The notes beneath the pieces are model-generated. The model did no database searches and was not told the DNA's origin. It saw nothing but the letters and a program-made list of their open reading frames with translations. Positions 1,417 to 61,143 of a stretch of 64,000 nt of DNA are shown piece by piece (the first letter of the stretch is position 1; each line of letters opens with the position of its first letter). Source of the stretch: Candidatus Kuenenia stuttgartensis (GTDB lineage: Bacteria > Planctomycetota > Planctomycetia > Planctomycetales > Planctomycetaceae); contig CAMDRI010000006.1 in assembly GCA_945906725.1 (NCBI GenBank), positions 1 through 64,000 on the forward strand. Reading direction: 5' to 3'. The translations under genes and the position numbers were made by a program.

Positions 1417-4400
1417 CTATTGCCGCATCAAGTTCAGCAGCACGTCGTCTTTCAAGTCTCGCGCACCTGACGCTGATTGCTTCGCGAGCATCTCTCCCAG
1501 TTCGCGCAACGACTCTTGCCGCGAGCACGCGACCGACAGTAACCAGTCATCCCAGACGCGCGTTCGAGTTGCCGAGTTGTTCTTGCCGGCTTGCACTTCC
1601 CACAGCGTGATCTGCTGCCGTACCAGAGTTTCGGCAACGGCGGGAGCCCTGTTTGCAAAATGAATCAGCGCCAGCAGGACATGAATTCGATCGCTGGGCC
1701 GCTGCTTCATTTGCTCTTCGACGAAGGCGTCCAACTCTGCCAACCGATCCGCCTCGCGAGCGGCCTCAACCAGCAAGAATGCCGAGGATTTCAAATCTGA
1801 GATTTGAGATTTGAGATCGGCGATTTCGGATTTCGGATTTCGGATTTCGGATTTCCCGGCCAACGAGCCGGTGAGCATCCGCATCGACTTCACACCGTCA
1901 TTCGGCAGCGACCACGCCCGCCACAACTCGTACCGTTCCTGAGCTGGACGCGACTTCAGTTTTGCTTCCAGAATCGCCAAAACCGGACCAGGATTTTCGT
2001 CGGAATACCGATCTGGCCAGCGTGCATCCGCGACTTGAGCCAGCAGAGTGATCGCCTCCTGAGTCAGCCCGGCCGAGGCGTAGTCGGTCGCGATCGCAAG
2101 CAGTTCCAGCCGTCGCAGATGTTGGCCGTCCATCGCACCGGTCGCGGACCAGACTTGATCCATGTGCCGAAAATGAGCCGAGACGGTCTCCTTGGCCTTG
2201 TCGATTTGACCGTCGGCCAGTTGTTGCTTCGCGATCCAACGGCGCATGTCGGCCAGTGGATGCTCGCTGCGTGAATAGGCTTTGCTGAGCGGCGCAATCA
2301 GATTCTCGAAGAGCTTGGCTACTTGGACGCGACGTTGCGTCAGCGGCGCGAGAAGCGAGACGATGTGTGTGGCGATGCGGCTGCTTTGAAACACCGGTTG
2401 CGACCAATCGAGGTCTTCGAGTTGCACCAGTTCGGCATCCAGTCGCTGCTCGTTGTTCGTCTGCCGCGCCAGCAGCAATTGAATCAACCGCAGCGGCAAC
2501 TTGTACTTCACGGTCTTCTCCCGCTCCGCCAGTCGCTGAGCGAGTTGGTCATTCCGCTTTTCTGCAATCGCCTGCTCGACGAGTCGCAGAGCGAGGCTCT
2601 GCGGCCGGGCCTCCGTAGGCCGGACGCTCACGTCCGGTCTCTCCACCGCGAACACAAAAACCTTGTCGGGCCGGTTCGTCGGCAGTACGCATTCCAACAA
2701 CGTCGTGAAGATCTCGTCTGCGGAAACTCCACTGGCTCGCCACTCCGGCTCCAGTGTGTCCCAGGTGGCCAGGATGTCCTCGCTGAGATTGACCACCGAC
2801 AAGAACACATCATCAAGCGGTTCAGCTTGAGTCTGCGTCCTGGAAGATATCTTCTTTGAGCCGTTGATCGCATCGCGGAAGATCGCCAACGACAGATCAG
2901 GCATCTCAGCGCTGAGCGTCAATCGGCAAAGGTCTCGTGCGCGATTCAACCGCGTGATTGTCCAATTCACCGACCAGACGAACTGTTTGCCAATCAGCAT
3001 CGGGACCGCATCCTCGGCCGAGCGTGGCCGCAGGACATCTTCGGCCAGCCGAGTCCACAGCGTCCGCGCGAGTTGCTTGTCGCCGGACTTGAGAGCCAAC
3101 TCGCCACGCTCACGCAGGATTGCCCATTGGAAACGCGGGTCGAAGTGCAGCGAGGCGGATTCGGTCGCGAGATCCGCGAGTTCGTGGCCGAGCTTTCGAT
3201 ATTCCTCGCGAGCGAGACATTCGCGTGCGACCAGCCACACGCCAAGTTGCGGATGAAAGCCCGCTGGAGCGTTGCGCGATCGCTCGGTTTTCAGGTACGA
3301 CTTCGCGGTCTCGACGAGTTGCGGAAGAGCAGTGCGTTCGGGCGAAGAATTCGGGGCGAAGAGTTCTGTCAGCGATGCGAGGATCGCGAGCGACAGATCC
3401 GTAGGATGCTCCGCCTTCGGCGGATTGCCCGTCTTGTTTTTTTCATTCGCGCTGTCGGACGGACGGTCAAGAGTGCCCATCCTGCGCAGCGACTCAGTCC
3501 ACTTCGCCCACAAGTCTTTGTCCTTCACGGTTACCTTGAGCAGCGACACGAACGGACTATCAAGCCGCAGGTTCGTCAGCGAATCACCGGTGACGTGCGA
3601 GAGCAGATCGATACCGCCGGGAGGGCGATCGTTCGCCGATGCGAGGATCGTCGGCAGCATCTCTGGTTTGATCGCCGCTCGCGAGTTCGCGAATCGCTGT
3701 TCGAGTTGCTCCAACCACGTCCCGCCATCGCTGTTGTTGGCTCCCGGCAATTGCCAGCGCGTGATCATCGCTTGAGCCAACTTCGCAGCGACGTAGGGCT
3801 GATCGATCTCAGCGGCGATCTTCGCCGCCTCGACGAACAGCGGGCTGCCGGCTTGCCGAGTCAGCTCGGCCGGATCATCCAGCCCCGCCAGCATCCGATT
3901 CACGATCCGCACCGCCAGTTGCTGCATCGACGGTTCTTTGCCGAACCAGCGGCAGTGTTCGAGAACCGTCTCTGTGTCGGATGAAAGTTCGTAGAACGAC
4001 GCGGCCGAATTGAAGTCCTGTGCATGCGCGAGTTCGACGCCGATGCCGCAGGTTAGCAAGTCAAAGCCTTGATAGTCCGATAACTTTGGTCCGAACTGGA
4101 TCGGGAATGCATCGGATTTGGGGATGACGATGGCGAACAACTTCTTGGCCTCGTCGAGCTTTCCTTGTTTGAGCCGAATCATTCCGAGCGTGACGTTCCC
4201 TCCGAGCGTCCAATCGGGATGCGTCTGTCTCGCCGCTTCGACGATCGCGGCGAGTTCATCGAGTCGCTTCAACTGCGCCGCGAGTTCAACCGTTCGCCGA
4301 GTCATCGAATCAATCTGTTTGCCGCTGTGCCGCCGAGACACATCGATGCCGTACCACGGTCCCGGTGATTTGCGGGTCTCGTCCGGCACGGCCAAATCGC

Positions 4401-7400
4401 GTGCGATTGGCCACATCTCTTCCTGTTGCCAGACCGACTCGCTCACGACCAGCAATTGAGCAGCCAGCATCGGACGAAAGTCGGGGGCTTCGCGGAATGC
4501 TTTCTCGAACAGTTGGATGATGAGCTTGGCTCGGATCGGCGGGCCTTCCAGGCGTTGGACAATGCGGCGGAAGAGTTCCACTCGCTGCTGATCGTTCACG
4601 GCGAGCTTCGATTTCAGCACGATGGCCGCCAGCTCATCGACGTGGCCGAGTTCCGACAGAATTTGTTCCGCCTCGAACAACACTTGAGCAGTCGCGTTGG
4701 GCAGGCGCTCGATGGCGAACAAGAAGTGCGGCACCGCGAGCTGCGCCTTGCCGGCCGAGACCAACGCTCGCGCGAGCGTCAGCCGGAACTGCGGATCTGG
4801 AGCGTTACTGTCTGCCAGTCGGACGAGCAGCTTCGCGATCTTCTCCCCCGAACCAGAACGACGCGCCAGCGAGTGGTCTTTGTTGTCCGACGTTCGACCA
4901 CTCGCTGGCGCGTCGTGCTGATGGTCTTCCGCCCCGTACAACTCGGCCAATTGCCCGAACAGTTTCAGCGACTGCGGTGAGCGATCGAATTGTTGCTCCG
5001 CCTGTTCGATGAGCGGCCCCAGGCGTCCTTGCTGACCCAGCAGCGCGAGCGCCCTCGTGCGGGCGGTCGAGGTCGTCGTGATGACGCGTGCCTGCTGACC
5101 GCCGCCGAACGTCGATTGCTGCACGCTGCCAATCAGCGTGTTGGCCGGCGAGGTGCGGCGAATGATCTGCTCCGCAATCTGACACGCCTCGTCGAGCTTC
5201 TTAGCCTCGATCCGTTCCTGCATGGCCTGTTGCAGCACCGCGAGGTTATTCCCCGCTCGCTGAGGCAACCGCTGCCGAATCGCCTCGGCCTGTTCGTGCA
5301 GCCCCAACCCCGACAACGTTGAGGCCAGTTGCTGTTCCTCGGCCGGGTCCAGCTTCATCCCAAACAACCGCTCGGCGGCCACGCGCAGGCGTTCGACGCT
5401 ATTCGTCTTCACTGCCAGTCGCACGGCGCGCTGCTCAATTTCTTTCCGCAGCTTGCCGTCGTTCGTCTCGATCCGATCGAGCAGTTCCAACGCCTCGGCA
5501 AATTGTTCGCGGTGCTGGAAGAAGAAGGCGATGTCGCTTTGCAAATCAGGATTTCGCTCGGTCACATCGAAGAGCCGCCGCATGACCGGCAACGCCGCGT
5601 CGTACTCGTTGCTCCAAACGTGGAGGCACGACAACGCCAGCAACCCGAGGAACTGCTTTCGCGACTTGGGCTCGGCCTGCGCGACCTTCGTTTGCCAACG
5701 CTCGCGCAACGCAGCCGACCATTTGTGCTCAGCGGCGATCGCGTGAGCCTGAAACAGAACTTGCAGCACGGCGGAGTCCAAGTCATCGGTGATCGTCGGG
5801 AAATCGACGGTGATCGGCTTCCAGCGTTCGGGTGTCAGCCAGACAAGCCAGTTTTGCCCCGACTGAGCGGTCGATGCGGCTTGCACCGGAGTCACGGTCG
5901 ATGCCGGCACGCTCGTCGAATGCAGGATGTAAACCAAACGAGTCGCGAACCCATTCGACCGTCGCGGCAACTGCGGATGCGAAAGCGGTTCCCAGACGTC
6001 GTCGAGCAGTTTCAGGATGCGCTCCTGCGACTGCTCAGCTGGGAGGGTTCTCCGAATCATCAACTGCTGTACCCACCACGCGACGAACTCTGGATTGCCC
6101 GGCCGGAATTCGGACTTTGGCAGGGCCGCGAATCCCGGAGTGGCCGCGACCGTTTGAACGTACTTCGACAAAAGTCGCAGCACTTCGTCGTTGTCGTTTC
6201 GCTCCGCCGCACGCCGCACGAGCCAGCCCAAGATGTTCGGATTCGGGCTTGTCTCTTCAGCTTCTTTGAGCAACGCCGCCAGTCGCTCCGACTGCCCAGC
6301 ACGGAGGAATTCGCGCGCGATCAACTCTGGCAACGAGTAATCCGAACCCCAACTCAGCACGTCATCTTGAGGCAGCAACCGTCGCAGCGAAGCCACCAGC
6401 CGATCAATCACCGCGCCTTCGAGCGGCTCGCCCGCGAGTGTTGGCTGCGGTCCGTACGAACTGCCGGTTCTTTCCGCTCGGAGAAATACCAGCGACTGCA
6501 CCGCCAGCCAATCGACGGCCGGATCATCCGGTGCCACCGCCTGTAAATCGAGGCACGCCTTGAAGAGTGGCTCATTGGGACCGGTAAACGACAGCCACCA
6601 GTAAACCTCATCCCACGCGCGGCGGAGTTGCGAGTCGTCACTCGTGTCGTGCGTGACTCGCGGGCGACGCGTCTCGCCAATTCGTCCGTAATCGTGCAGT
6701 CCTTGCACACCCACCATCAGCCGGCCGTCGATGGCGATTCGCCGAGCTTCGCCAAAATCAACGATCGGCATTTCCGGCATTCGCATCCGTCGACGTAGCC
6801 GCTCAACCCGATCGAACAGCGACCCCTTCGCCGTCGAATTGGGAACGAGAATGCTCGGCGCATCATCCGACAACGGCAGCTTGAGCAGTTCATTGCGAAC
6901 GACCAAGGCTTTGTCCGCTTCACCGAGCACCGCCAACGCGAAGGCCTGACGAACCAGGAACTCCCAATTCTGGGGGTCGCGATCGAGCGACGCCTGCGCG
7001 AGCGTCAACGCCAGCCGCAACTGTTGTTTTTCCGTCGGACCATTGGCTGACGTGAGCAATCGGTCGATCTCACGCAACACCTTGACCGGATCGCGTTCGG
7101 TTTCGAGCCATCGCGTCGCCAAGATGTCGGCATCGGCATCGTGACCGGCTCGGCGAAGCAACACAATCAAATGTTCGTCGGCCTCGCGTTTGCGAGTCAC
7201 TTCAGCCAGCCTCTGTTGATGAGCGATCGCAGCCGCCAAGTCTCCCGTCGATTCACACAGCGAGACCATTCGGGCCAGCAGTGCGGGGTCTCGCGGAGCT
7301 TGTGGCAACCAGCGCTCCAACTCACGCCGCGCCTGCTGCGTGTCTCCCGCTTGCTCGTGAACTTGGACCAACGCCAGCGACGCATCCCGCCGCAACTTCG

Positions 7401-12207: not shown

Positions 12208-12214
12208 GTGGCCT

Positions 12215-12272
12215 AGCACGACGCGCCAGCGAGTAGTCGCACATCAGCAGTCACTCGCTTGCGCGTCGTGCT
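12215..12272. repeat. Imperfect palindromic repeat, CACGACGCGCCAGCGAGT family (intergenic copy)
   Basis: agcacgacgcgccagcgagtagtc ... tcactcgcttgcgcgtcgtgct; same core as 4858-4916 and 57342-57367. Confidence 0.85.
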
Positions 12273-12328
12273 CGTTTTGCGGTCACTCGTTAAAACGGTG
12301 TCACTTCAGCGGGCGAAGGAGACATTTC

Positions 12329-21256: not shown

Positions 21257-21334
21257 GTAGGGTGGATCGAGTCATCGAGACCCACCACGAATGACGACGG
21301 TTTTGGTGGGTCTCGATGACTCGACCCACCCTAC
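21257..21334. repeat. 31-bp inverted repeat hairpin (GTAGGGTGGrTCGAGTCATCGAGACCCACCA), 16-nt loop
   Basis: Arms 21257-21287 and 21304-21334, one mismatch. Confidence 0.95.
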
Positions 21335-21376
21335 GAATGTCTGACAAAACGCGAGTCGCACAAGGATGAGCACTCG

Positions 21377-28469: not shown

Positions 28470-29261
28470 ATGAGCCATTTCCGCATTTCCGCTGGTCAAA
28501 TTGACCAATTCGAGGAGGACGGATTTTTCATCGTTCCGAACCTGCTCGACTCCGAAGAAGTCATGCTGCTCAGCCAGATCGCTCGCGCGGATCGCGAACT
28601 GACTTTGAAAAAAGCCACCCGCGCCGACGGCGAAGGGGGGGCGATCGAACTCGTCGTCGAGAACGAACTCCCGGACGATTCGATCTACAGCGCGATCGTC
28701 CGCAGCGAACGAATCGTCAACGCGATGGAAACGCTGTTGCTCGACGAGGTCTACCACTACCACCACAAGATGATCCTGAAGGAGCCGCGCGTCGGCGGCG
28801 CGTGGGCTTGGCATCAGGATTACGGCTACTGGTACAACAACGGCTGTCTGTTTCCACACCTGGCAAGCTGCATGATCGCGCTCGACAAGGCGACGCGTGA
28901 GAACGGCTGCTTGCAAGTCCTCCGCGGCTCGCAGCATCTGGGCCGCATCGACCACGGCAAGACCGGCGATCAGACTGGAGCCGACCTCGAACGAGTCACC
29001 GCCGCGCTGGAACGGTTCGAGTTGGTCCACTGCGAACTCGATCCCGGCTCGGCGATTTTCTTCGACTGCAACTTGCTGCACCGCTCCGACCAAAACAAGA
29101 GTGAACAACCGCGTTGGGCCTTCATCTGCTGCTACAACGCCAAGCACAACGACCCGTACAAAGATTCGCGTCACCCGCGTTACTCGTTGCTAGAACGATG
29201 GGACGACGCGCGTGTCTTGGAAGTCGGGCGACGACAATTGGCGGCGTTGTCGCCAAACTAA
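28470..29261 (+). CDS. Phytanoyl-CoA dioxygenase (PhyH) family protein
   Basis: FEEDGFFIVPNLLD, WAWHQDYGYWYNNGCLFPHLASCMIALDKATRENGCLQVLRGSQHLG, HRSDQNKSEQPRWAF. Confidence 0.92.
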   Translation: MSHFRISAGQIDQFEEDGFFIVPNLLDSEEVMLLSQIARADRELTLKKATRADGEGGAIELVVENELPDDSIYSAIVRSERIVNAMETLLLDEVYHYHHKMILKEPRVGGAWAWHQDYGYWYNNGCLFPHLASCMIALDKATRENGCLQVLRGSQHLGRIDHGKTGDQTGADLERVTAALERFELVHCELDPGSAIFFDCNLLHRSDQNKSEQPRWAFICCYNAKHNDPYKDSRHPRYSLLERWDDARVLEVGRRQLAALSPN

Positions 29262-29347
29262 CCCGAAGCGTCAGCGAGGGCGGACGCTTCACCGATTCCC
29301 GGAATCCAAGTCATTTGAAGCGCCGGCCCTCGCTGACGCTTCGGGTT
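29260..29347. repeat. 21-bp perfect inverted repeat AACCCGAAGCGTCAGCGAGGG
   Basis: Arms 29260-29280 and 29327-29347; single-arm copy at ~46755-46775. Confidence 0.92.
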
Positions 29348-29375
29348 GGTTTGCGTACTCGAAAGGGCCGTTCTC

Positions 29376-34691: not shown

Positions 34692-34695
34692 GAGC

Positions 34696-46699: not shown

Positions 46700-46795
46700 G
46701 CACGGGCCTGAAGCAGGCTGCTCTTCGCCGTGAATCAAATCGGCTGAACGCTCGCCCTCGCTGACGCTTCGGGTTAGTTTGTAGCAGAGGTTTTT

Positions 46796-55857: not shown

Positions 55858-55896
55858 CGTGGCGTGGGGCAGGTTTCTAGCCTGCCATTGGCTTTT

Positions 55897-55963
55897 GGAG
55901 GACGGGCACTCTTGACCGTCCTTTTTTCGTGATCCGCAGGACGGTCAAGAGTGCCCGTCCTCC
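55897..55963. repeat. 25-bp perfect inverted repeat GGAGGACGGGCACTCTTGACCGTCC, 17-nt loop
   Basis: Arms 55897-55921 and 55939-55963; one arm recurs with one mismatch in 22 nt at 3461-3482 inside the giant TPR gene. Confidence 0.93.
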
Positions 55964-55996
55964 ACTTGGCCTGTGCCTTTCAATTTGGAGGCCTCA

Positions 55997-58900
55997 ATGC
56001 TCAGAACCGCTCGCAGGGTTTGTCTCATTGTTATTGGCCTGTTGTCGCACCTCGAGACAACAGCATTCGGCCAAGGCTACTCGCCCGATGAAGCCATCAA
56101 GCGGATGAAAGTGGCGGACGGGTTCGGGGTCAACGTCGTCGCCAGCGAGCCGCTCGTACGGCAACCGGTCGCCATCGAGTTCGATGACCGCGGCCGGTTG
56201 TGGGTCATTCAGTATTTGCAGTACCCAAACCCGGCGGGGCTGAAGCGAGTGCAGGTCGATCGCTTCTCGCGGACGAAGTACGACCGAGTGCCGGAACCGC
56301 CCCCGAAGGGGCCGCGCGGAGCGGATCGAATCACGATCCTTGAAGACACCGACGGCGACGGCCGCATGGACCGCGGTCGCGATTTCATCGACGGGTTGAA
56401 CCTCACAACCGGGATTGCGTTCGGTCACGGCGGCGTGTTTGTGCTCAATGTGCCGTACTTACTGTTCTATCCCGACAAGAACCGAGATGACGTGCCAGAC
56501 AGCGATCCCGAAGTGCTGCTTAGTGGCTTCGGCATGGAGGACGCTCACAGCGTCGCAAACTCGCTGACATTTGGGCCGGACGGTTGGCTCTACGGCTGCC
56601 AAGGGAGCACTGTGACCGCGAACGTGCGCGGCATCGAGTTTCAACAGGGCGTGTGGCGGTATCACCCGCTGACGCGTGCGTTTGAACTCTTCTGCGAAGG
56701 AGGCGGCAACTCGTGGGGCCTGGACTTCGACCGCACCGGCCAATTGCTCTACAGCACGAACTGGGGCGGGCATGTCCTGCTGCATGGCGTGCAGGGGGGC
56801 TACCTCGTGAAGGCGTTTGCCAAACACGGAGCGTTGCACAACCCGCACGCTTACGGCTTCTTCGATCATGCTCCGCACAAGAATTTTCGGGGCGGGCATG
56901 TGACGGTCGGCGGCATCGTCTATCAAGGGGACTCGTTTCCGGATTCGTTCCGAGGCAAATACATCGCGGGAGACTTACTCGGCCACGGAGTTTATTGGCA
57001 CGACATCGAACCGCGCGGCTCGACGATTCAGACCGCTCATGGCGGCGAGTTGCTGGTGGCGAACGATTCATGGTTCGCACCGACCGACGTGACGATGGGG
57101 CCGGACGGCGCAATCTACGTTTCCGATTGGCACGACTCGCGTACGGCACATCCCGATCCCGACGCCGAATGGGACCGCTCGAACGGCCGGATTTACCGGA
57201 TCGCCGCGAAGGGATCGAAGCCCGCCGCGCTGATCGACTTTGCTAAGTTGCCAAATGACGAATTGTTGAAGCTGCACACACATCGTAATCAGTGGTACGT
57301 GCGGAGCGCACGGCAGGAGTTGGCGCGGCGCACGCCTCACCAGCACGACGCGCCAGCGAGTAGTCGGAACGAGGAAAAGGAAAAGCCGCCAGTCAACCAC
57401 CTGCTGCCGCTTCGGTCTGGTATCGAAACCTTGCGTCAGGTGGCGGTGATAGCAGCCGACGAAACGACGGCACTCGAAGCATTCTGGACGCTCAATGTCT
57501 GTGGTGGTTTCGACGAGGCGTTGGCGTTCAAACTGCTCGACAGCCCGCACGCGGCCGTGCGGATGTGGACGGTGCGTTTGCTCGGAGATCCGAAACAAGT
57601 GGTCTCGACCAAGATGGCTCATCGGCTGGATGACTTCGCGGAGACCGATCCGTCGGTCCATGTGCGAATGCAACTGGCTTGCACCGCCGCACGACTGCCG
57701 GCCCATCTGGCGATGCCGATCATCAACGCGAACATCAATCGAGACATCGACAACGCCGATCCGTTCGTGCCGCTGCTTTGGTGGTGGGCGATCGAACGGC
57801 ACAGTGTCAGTTCGGAGAACGGCGTCAACGGCCGAGACGAAGTGATGAAGCGCTTCGTCCGGTCCTCGCTGTGGAAATCGAAGCTGGGCAGCACGACGTT
57901 GCTACCGCGACTGCTTCGACGATACGGGGCCGAGGGAACATCTGCTGGTCATGCGGCGTGTTTGCAATTGCTCAAAGCCGCGCCGAATGATGCGGAACGA
58001 GACACGTTGCTGGCGTCGTTGCTCTCCGGTTGGCGAGAAACTCCGCGCGACGCGACTGCGCTGTCGCTGGAACTCACCGATTCGATCGTGTCACGCTGGA
58101 ATGCGAAGCCGGACGACAGCACGTTGCTCACGTTCGCGCTGGCGCTGAAGCATCGACCGGCCTACGACCGGACGTTAGCTGAGTGCCGGAACTCGCAGGC
58201 GGACCCCAATCGCAGGATCGCCCGACTCAGCCTGCTCGCCGAGGTGATTCAGCCGGACGCCACCGAACCGCTGTTGGCCATTGTAACCTCGGAGAAAGAG
58301 CCGGAATCGGTTCGATCCGCGGCGCTGGCCACGGTAGGTCGGTTCGGTAGCGATGAGGTCCGGACGCGATTGCTGGCGGAACTTTCGAAGTTGCCGCCGA
58401 AGCTGAAGAGCCAAACGATCGACCAGTTGCTCGGCCGCAAGTCGTCCGCCGCCGCGCTGCTCAATCGAGTCGATCGAGGTGAACTCAAGCCGAGCGATCT
58501 GCCAGCCGACCAAGTCCGCCGCGTCGCGCTGTTCGAGGACACAGAACTCGACGCGCTGGTCACGAAGCATTGGGGCAAGCTCGGTGCGGCGACTCGCGAG
58601 GAGAAACTGGCCGAGGTGCGGCGGCTCAACAACGACCTGCGAGCGGCTGGCGGCAACGCTGAAGCCGGAAAAGCGGTCTACAAAAAGCACTGTGCCGCGT
58701 GCCACCAGATTTTCGGCGAGGGAACGAAGCTCGGCCCGGACCTCACGACTGCAAATCGCAAGGACCGCGACTACTTGCTGATCAGCCTGGTCGATCCCAG
58801 CGTGGTCATTCGCAAAGAATTTCTCAGCCACATCGTGCAGACAGTCGACGGCCGGGTGCTCAACGGACTGATTGTCGAACGGAACGAATCGGGGCTGACG

Positions 58901-59053
58901 CTGGCCAACGCGAAAAACGAACGAGTCACGCTCGCCGTGGCTGACATCGAAGAGCTGCGCGAATCGCCCGTCTCGCAGATGCCGGACGATCTGTATCGGC
59001 AACTCAAGCCTCAGGAACTGCGCGATCTGTTTGCCTATCTCGCCAAGGATTGA
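55997..59053 (+). CDS. PVC-type membrane-bound dehydrogenase/heme-binding protein with C-terminal cytochrome c
   Basis: GYSPDEAIKRMKVADGFGVNVVASEPLVRQPVAIEFDDRGRLWVIQYLQYPNPAG; C-terminal GKAVYKKHCAACHQIFGEGTKLGPDLT. Confidence 0.94.
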   Translation: MLRTARRVCLIVIGLLSHLETTAFGQGYSPDEAIKRMKVADGFGVNVVASEPLVRQPVAIEFDDRGRLWVIQYLQYPNPAGLKRVQVDRFSRTKYDRVPEPPPKGPRGADRITILEDTDGDGRMDRGRDFIDGLNLTTGIAFGHGGVFVLNVPYLLFYPDKNRDDVPDSDPEVLLSGFGMEDAHSVANSLTFGPDGWLYGCQGSTVTANVRGIEFQQGVWRYHPLTRAFELFCEGGGNSWGLDFDRTGQLLYSTNWGGHVLLHGVQGGYLVKAFAKHGALHNPHAYGFFDHAPHKNFRGGHVTVGGIVYQGDSFPDSFRGKYIAGDLLGHGVYWHDIEPRGSTIQTAHGGELLVANDSWFAPTDVTMGPDGAIYVSDWHDSRTAHPDPDAEWDRSNGRIYRIAAKGSKPAALIDFAKLPNDELLKLHTHRNQWYVRSARQELARRTPHQHDAPASSRNEEKEKPPVNHLLPLRSGIETLRQVAVIAADETTALEAFWTLNVCGGFDEALAFKLLDSPHAAVRMWTVRLLGDPKQVVSTKMAHRLDDFAETDPSVHVRMQLACTAARLPAHLAMPIINANINRDIDNADPFVPLLWWWAIERHSVSSENGVNGRDEVMKRFVRSSLWKSKLGSTTLLPRLLRRYGAEGTSAGHAACLQLLKAAPNDAERDTLLASLLSGWRETPRDATALSLELTDSIVSRWNAKPDDSTLLTFALALKHRPAYDRTLAECRNSQADPNRRIARLSLLAEVIQPDATEPLLAIVTSEKEPESVRSAALATVGRFGSDEVRTRLLAELSKLPPKLKSQTIDQLLGRKSSAAALLNRVDRGELKPSDLPADQVRRVALFEDTELDALVTKHWGKLGAATREEKLAEVRRLNNDLRAAGGNAEAGKAVYKKHCAACHQIFGEGTKLGPDLTTANRKDRDYLLISLVDPSVVIRKEFLSHIVQTVDGRVLNGLIVERNESGLTLANAKNERVTLAVADIEELRESPVSQMPDDLYRQLKPQELRDLFAYLAKD
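57342..57367. repeat. Half copy of CACGACGCGCCAGCGAGT repeat inside CDS
   Basis: agcacgacgcgccagcgagtagtcgg translated as QHDAPASSR. Confidence 0.85.
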
Positions 59054-61049: not shown

Positions 61050-61127
61050 GTAGGGTGGGTCGAGTCATTGAGACCCACCACGATTTGTGATCGTTTTGGT
61101 GGGTCTCAATGACTCGACCCACCCTAC
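61050..61127. repeat. 31-bp perfect inverted repeat GTAGGGTGGGTCGAGTCATTGAGACCCACCA, 16-nt loop
   Basis: Arms 61050-61080 and 61097-61127. Confidence 0.97.
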
Positions 61128-61143
61128 GAGGAATTCTCGATTC

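Follow-up and report, generated by a model that had tools for sequence, protein, structure and literature searches.

How does one and the same palindromic repeat come to be read, in the same frame, within the genes of two unrelated proteins? The question is raised by a 64,000-nt stretch of planctomycete DNA (the window, part of a genome of 5.4 Mb), in which an inverted repeat lies inside the gene of a giant TPR-repeat protein, again outside of genes, and a third time inside the gene of a PVC-type heme-binding protein (Table 1). An earlier note on this DNA had described the repeat as a palindromic element that belongs to this lineage and invades its proteins. What that note read from the letters proved accurate: the perfect 21-nt arms in the TPR gene (4858-4878 and 4896-4916, separated by a 17-nt loop), the intergenic copy (12215-12272), and the copy in the heme gene (57342-57367) were all found again, and the translations of the two genic copies, DHQHDAPASGRTSDNKDHSLARRSGSG and PHQHDAPASSRNE, are correct, as is their identity at 23 of 24 positions. 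When a 20-nt core was searched in the window with up to three mismatches, five matches were obtained, compared with 0.01 expected. The heme-gene copy is not a half element by origin, as relatives hold both arms at that site and the second arm has decayed here.

Table 1. Copies of the palindromic element, their host genes, and related arms in the 64-kb window
Feature	Position	Strand	Remarks
Host gene 1, giant TPR-repeat protein, 2871 aa	1417..10032	-	gene caller; Pfam TPR_19, TPR_16
Intact element in giant TPR gene	4852..4922	-	filled and empty orthologs; gene reading HQHDAPASGRTSDNKDHSLARRSG
Parts of the TPR-gene element	arms 4852-4878, 4896-4922; loop 4879-4895	-	
Intergenic element copy	12212..12275	.	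~10 nt beyond stop codon of gene ending 12207
Sister-family element (CCGAAGCGTCAGCGAGGG arms)	29254..29353	.	at 3' end of gene ending 29261
Another sister-family arm	46738..46781	.	between gene ending 46699 and gene starting 46805
Host gene 2, DUF7133 + HEAT + cytochrome-c (PVC-type heme-binding protein)	55997..59053	+	
Heme-gene insertion, first arm, reads HQHDAPASS	57339..57365	+	
Heme-gene insertion, decayed second arm	57396..57421	+	codon alignment; congeners intact, HSLARRA or HSLALRA

When the copies are compared side by side, the element consists of a pair of inverted arms of ~26 nt (ACYAGCACGACGCGCCAGCGAGTGGT) enclosing a loop that varies in length and sequence. Judged from the position frequencies of 280 arms, the arm boundary falls about six bases beyond the core, and the consensus of these arms has no GTAG tetranucleotide at the end of the unit; a CGTC is found in the reverse complement of the arm, where it overlaps the proposed stem. 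A single arm can be folded into a small hairpin (CAC-GA-CGC-GNNA-GCG-A-GTG). Folded as DNA, this intra-arm hairpin is weak (-5.2 kcal/mol), and the whole palindrome reaches -32 kcal/mol. Among 206 arms, the pair at arm positions 1-17 is A-T in 177, C-G in 19, and T-A in one. In four elements, one arm is of the A-T and the other of the C-G type, which keeps the pair within each arm and breaks the one between the arms. These mixed elements, with their within-arm pairing, favor the single arm as the unit of the element, as in REPINs, for which the evidence is modest. The A-T and C-G arms may, however, descend from two subfamilies instead of having arisen by many compensatory changes. A clear direct repeat (target-site duplication) was not seen at the element ends, and clean pairs of filled and empty sites at the DNA level were lacking.

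The repeat is multicopy across the genome, as the earlier note had anticipated: the 17-nt core ACGACGCGCCAGCGAGT occurs, with up to two mismatches, 57 times in forward and 59 times in reverse orientation, compared with 2 and 3 matches of the reversed control. Each of the 12 genus genomes examined contains this core (19-262 matches), which is rare beyond the genus, and the copy number differs strongly between congeners. A wider core, CGAMGCGYMAGCGAGGG, was detected in 105 of 298 Planctomycetia genomes, representing 71 of 155 genera, whereas the control counts were close to zero. The element in the window is thus the genus-level variant of a family that is widespread in the class. A unique element belonging to this lineage is not supported, since the parent family is spread across the class Planctomycetia. 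The genus itself appears to belong to the uncultured Planctomycetaceae and presumably lives in freshwater, and it is in this one genus that the GAGTGG variant is abundant. No published report of the repeat in planctomycetes was found in the titles, abstracts, and selected passages of the open-access literature, and the string "palindrom" does not occur in a freshwater planctomycete genome paper (PMC6461901).

The location of the copies was determined with a hexamer-based gene caller written for the analysis, under which a gene-breaking insertion would count as intergenic. Of 66 elements in the source genome, 48 are intergenic and 14 lie within genes. Among 72 perfect pairs sampled without bias from five congeners, 60 (~83%) are intergenic, 10 are found within open genes, and 2 at gene edges. 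In-frame entry into unrelated genes, first noticed in two hosts, is thus borne out by both sets. Because the coding fraction is ~0.9 (i.e., ~90% of the DNA), genic copies are strongly depleted, and the notion of an element specialized for protein invasion is not upheld. The intergenic copies are enriched in gaps between convergent genes (24 of 58 vs. a baseline of 22 of 163, p = 2e-5), depleted between divergent genes, and often located 10-40 nt downstream of a stop codon, as REPs are.

Within genes, the second arm reads HSLARRA in all 10 perfect pairs (p = 1.7e-5 at 1/3) and the first arm reads HDAPAS in 8 of the 10. All eight of these HDAPAS pairs have a core-to-core length of 59, a length shared by 10 of the 60 intergenic pairs (p = 1.5e-4), although the p-values for frame and length are optimistic, as the 10 genic copies may include orthologs of one another. 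The other phases of a length-59 element read ARRASEW...PLAGASC and STTRQRVV...TTRWRVVL, and none of the 10 genic pairs uses either. The shared reading frame put forward in the earlier note stands as a real bias but not as a rule, given that older copies in the source genome use other frames, namely ARRASEG, STTRQRV, and TPRWRVGLV. The hosts of the last of these, a proton-pumping oxidoreductase subunit and a PMT_2 glycosyltransferase, belong to membrane protein families. Overall, the frame pattern fits a filter acting on the resulting protein.

Ortholog alignment identified the TPR and heme segments as lineage-specific insertions, as the earlier note had supposed, present in some congeners and absent elsewhere. 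The TPR insert is present in genomes G000, G005, and G006, with an empty site in G002, G003, and G011. Eight genus genomes contain the heme insert, which is missing from G004, G009, G010, and every other genus aligned. An ancestral protein motif was rejected, as the segment is absent from other genera and from some congeners. Empty sites were found in orthologs of four hosts (TPR, heme, DUF1365, and DHODH-like). Besides the DUF1365 protein, the hosts extend to an SRP54-type GTPase, a DUF1549/DUF1553 protein, and a proton-pumping oxidoreductase subunit. Seven species have the insert in the activation loop of a Ser/Thr kinase (Pkinase), between its DFG and APE motifs. Two protein kinase genes with the element were recorded (loci L026 and L415), of which L026 is the one with the copy in the activation loop of its kinase domain.

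The same sites are occupied by different palindrome families in different species. In the TPR linker, a pair of the GGACAGGCTTCCAGCCTGTC family is found in G007, a pair of the GGTTGGGACTCCGTCCCGACC family in G004, and a third palindrome in G010; the GGACAGGCTTCCAGCCTGTC family is commonest in G007 (36 + 37 = 73 matches) and the GGTTGGGACTCCGTCCCGACC family in G004 (128 + 132 = 260 matches). In G004 and G010, the kinase loop likewise contains a different palindromic peptide. Such linkers could tentatively be viewed as standing landing pads that receive the dominant palindrome family of each genome in frame, with the genic copies being kept as functional DNA sites, a proposal to which we give somewhat less than even credence.

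In orthologs of the kinase, heme, and TPR genes, differences at fourfold sites amount to 36 of 312 comparisons in the arms (12%) and 2142 of 6023 in the flanks (36%), whereas the amino acids of the heme gene differ in 103 of 392 cases in the arms (26%) and in 1017 of 8930 in the flanks (11%), all of these figures being descriptive because the species pairs are not independent. Across the five kinase species compared, 2 of 360 seven-codon windows are without a variable third position, and these are the first arm and an overlapping window. Moreover, the variable codon in the heme arm coincides with positions that are variable among the intergenic copies. Low fourfold divergence combined with variable heme-arm amino acids means that the peptide is not the explanation of arm conservation: the genic arms are conserved at the DNA level and not at the peptide level.

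The element is thus probably a non-autonomous REPIN-like palindromic repeat, built from two inverted ~26-nt units and a variable loop, of which a minority of copies lies within genes. Its copies would insert around the genome and persist mainly just beyond gene ends, especially between convergent genes. The minority landing in genes would survive only if the frame is kept (~72 nt net, the commonest genic class), and a surviving insert would have to read as a hydrophilic peptide (HDAPASG...HSLARRA) and sit in a tolerant linker. Movement of the copies by transposition is suggested by their multicopy spread and by the presence and absence of inserts at individual sites, and the frame bias would reflect selection on the protein. 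The arms, in turn, may be kept as DNA through recognition by a mobilizing or binding protein or through gene conversion between copies.

Several other explanations can be set against this REPIN-like repeat. The element might be a true REPIN, mobilized in trans by a RAYT or another Y1 (HUH) transposase that recognizes the single-stranded arm hairpin, which would agree with inverted units that each contain a hairpin and show signs of covariation within the arm. Of the 12 genus genomes, 11 have Y1 transposases (G011 is without a Y1 hit, but its assembly is incomplete), and passages of PMC3733652 report many tyrosine transposases with flanking repeats for R. baltica. However, no arm adjoins a Y1 gene in the core scan of 31 Y1 loci or in the relaxed-arm check near the gene in 8 of these, the copies do not track the number of Y1 genes (G011 with 0 Y1 and 101 cores; G004 with 13 Y1 and 19 cores), and the consensus is without the GTAG tag, so that mobilization in trans is a possibility we would not bet on. 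About as plausible is that the identity of the genic arms results from gene conversion among copies or from repeated fresh insertion at the same site rather than from recognition. The arms are indeed alike in genic and intergenic copies and the loops more diverged, but across some species, homology between the loops is still recognizable at both the kinase and the TPR site, and the insert is therefore old at those sites.

A rather unlikely alternative is that the element is an RNA or DNA hairpin of gene 3' ends (a terminator or mRNA stabilizer) that spread for that role, genic copies being rare accidents. The clustering of copies 10-40 nt past stops and between convergent genes, their depletion between divergent genes, and the strong folding of the whole element speak for such a role, yet it leaves unexplained the DNA-level conservation of the genic copies, the copy-number differences between congeners, and the arms differing at variable loop positions. 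Selection on HDAPAS...HSLARRA as a functional protein motif is highly improbable: in-frame conservation is seen in several unrelated proteins and is retained across up to eight species, but the arms are conserved at synonymous sites, the heme-arm amino acids are more variable than their flanks, other genes read the same DNA in other frames, and most copies are intergenic. Finally, the named members of the genus are metagenome assemblies and one contig end is common to G006 and G008; an assembly or binning artifact is nevertheless barely conceivable, as many independent assemblies share insertion sites with homologous but diverged loops.

Among known systems, REPINs and the Rickettsia palindromic elements are the best parallels, in the sense that the element works like them, a likeness rather than an established membership. 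REPINs (paired REP sequences; Bertels and Rainey 2011, PMC3116915) are pairs of short, non-autonomous inverted units around a spacer, with many, mostly intergenic copies, which is comparable with the element here; their units are capable of forming hairpins, to which the weak within-arm hairpin here may correspond. Unlike REPINs, it has no GTAG tag, a very short unit hairpin, widely varying loops, and a measurable in-frame genic share, and a resident RAYT flanked by arms was sought in the scanned Y1 loci and not found. The Rickettsia palindromic elements (PMC10969869) share the in-frame palindromic insert in unrelated genes and the recurring peptide, whereas the element here occurs in a different phylum, is shorter (~71 vs. 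~150 nt), is far commoner between genes, and has a looser peptide frame in older copies. Genic REP dimers are also known from the GTAG/CGTC REPs: according to passages of Di Nocera 2013 (PMC3733652), intragenic REP dimers code for 20-30 residues, including in Opitutus terrae of the PVC superphylum, although no GTAG or CGTC end tag was recognized in the present element, and those passages contain neither a comparison of insertion sites between congeners nor a test of synonymous conservation, in contrast to the analysis described here. Similar to MITEs, the element is short, multicopy, non-coding, and bounded by inverted repeats, but no parent transposon was found for it among the Y1 transposases searched.

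These planctomycetes therefore provide another lineage, beside Rickettsia, where palindromic repeats enter proteins in frame, and the availability of twelve genomes and several element families permits the invasion to be traced at individual sites. Within the inserts, synonymous positions and amino acids contrast in their conservation, which points to a constraint on the DNA inside coding sequence. Whether inserts of this kind serve the protein or the element, an old question, can in this way be tested directly.

Other repeats were observed alongside. A long near-perfect palindrome, GTAGGGTGGGTCGAGTCATTGAGACCCACC, occurs twice in the window (21257-21336 and 61050-61129), with more copies elsewhere in the genome, and ends in GTAG, like GTAG-type REPs. 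Near the C-terminus of the TPR gene, positions 1778-1855 hold an in-frame run of GATTTGAGATTT-type repeats (SEIRNPKSEIADLKSQISDLKS), and similar runs are located at 34695 and 40969. A short palindrome, GACGCGAGACGCGTC, followed by CACCACG or similar, is present in four copies (17215, 25766, 40221, and 59093). Furthermore, one contig end is the same in L378 (G006:C116) and L416 (G008:C138), which belong to two assemblies and suggest cross-binning of one contig. The palindromic family GGACGGTCAAGAGTGCCC occurs in the window at 3461, 32803, and 55939, with a perfect inverted repeat at 55896-55964, and its core gave 11 matches in 340 kb of the genome's own loci, compared with 0 for the reversed control.
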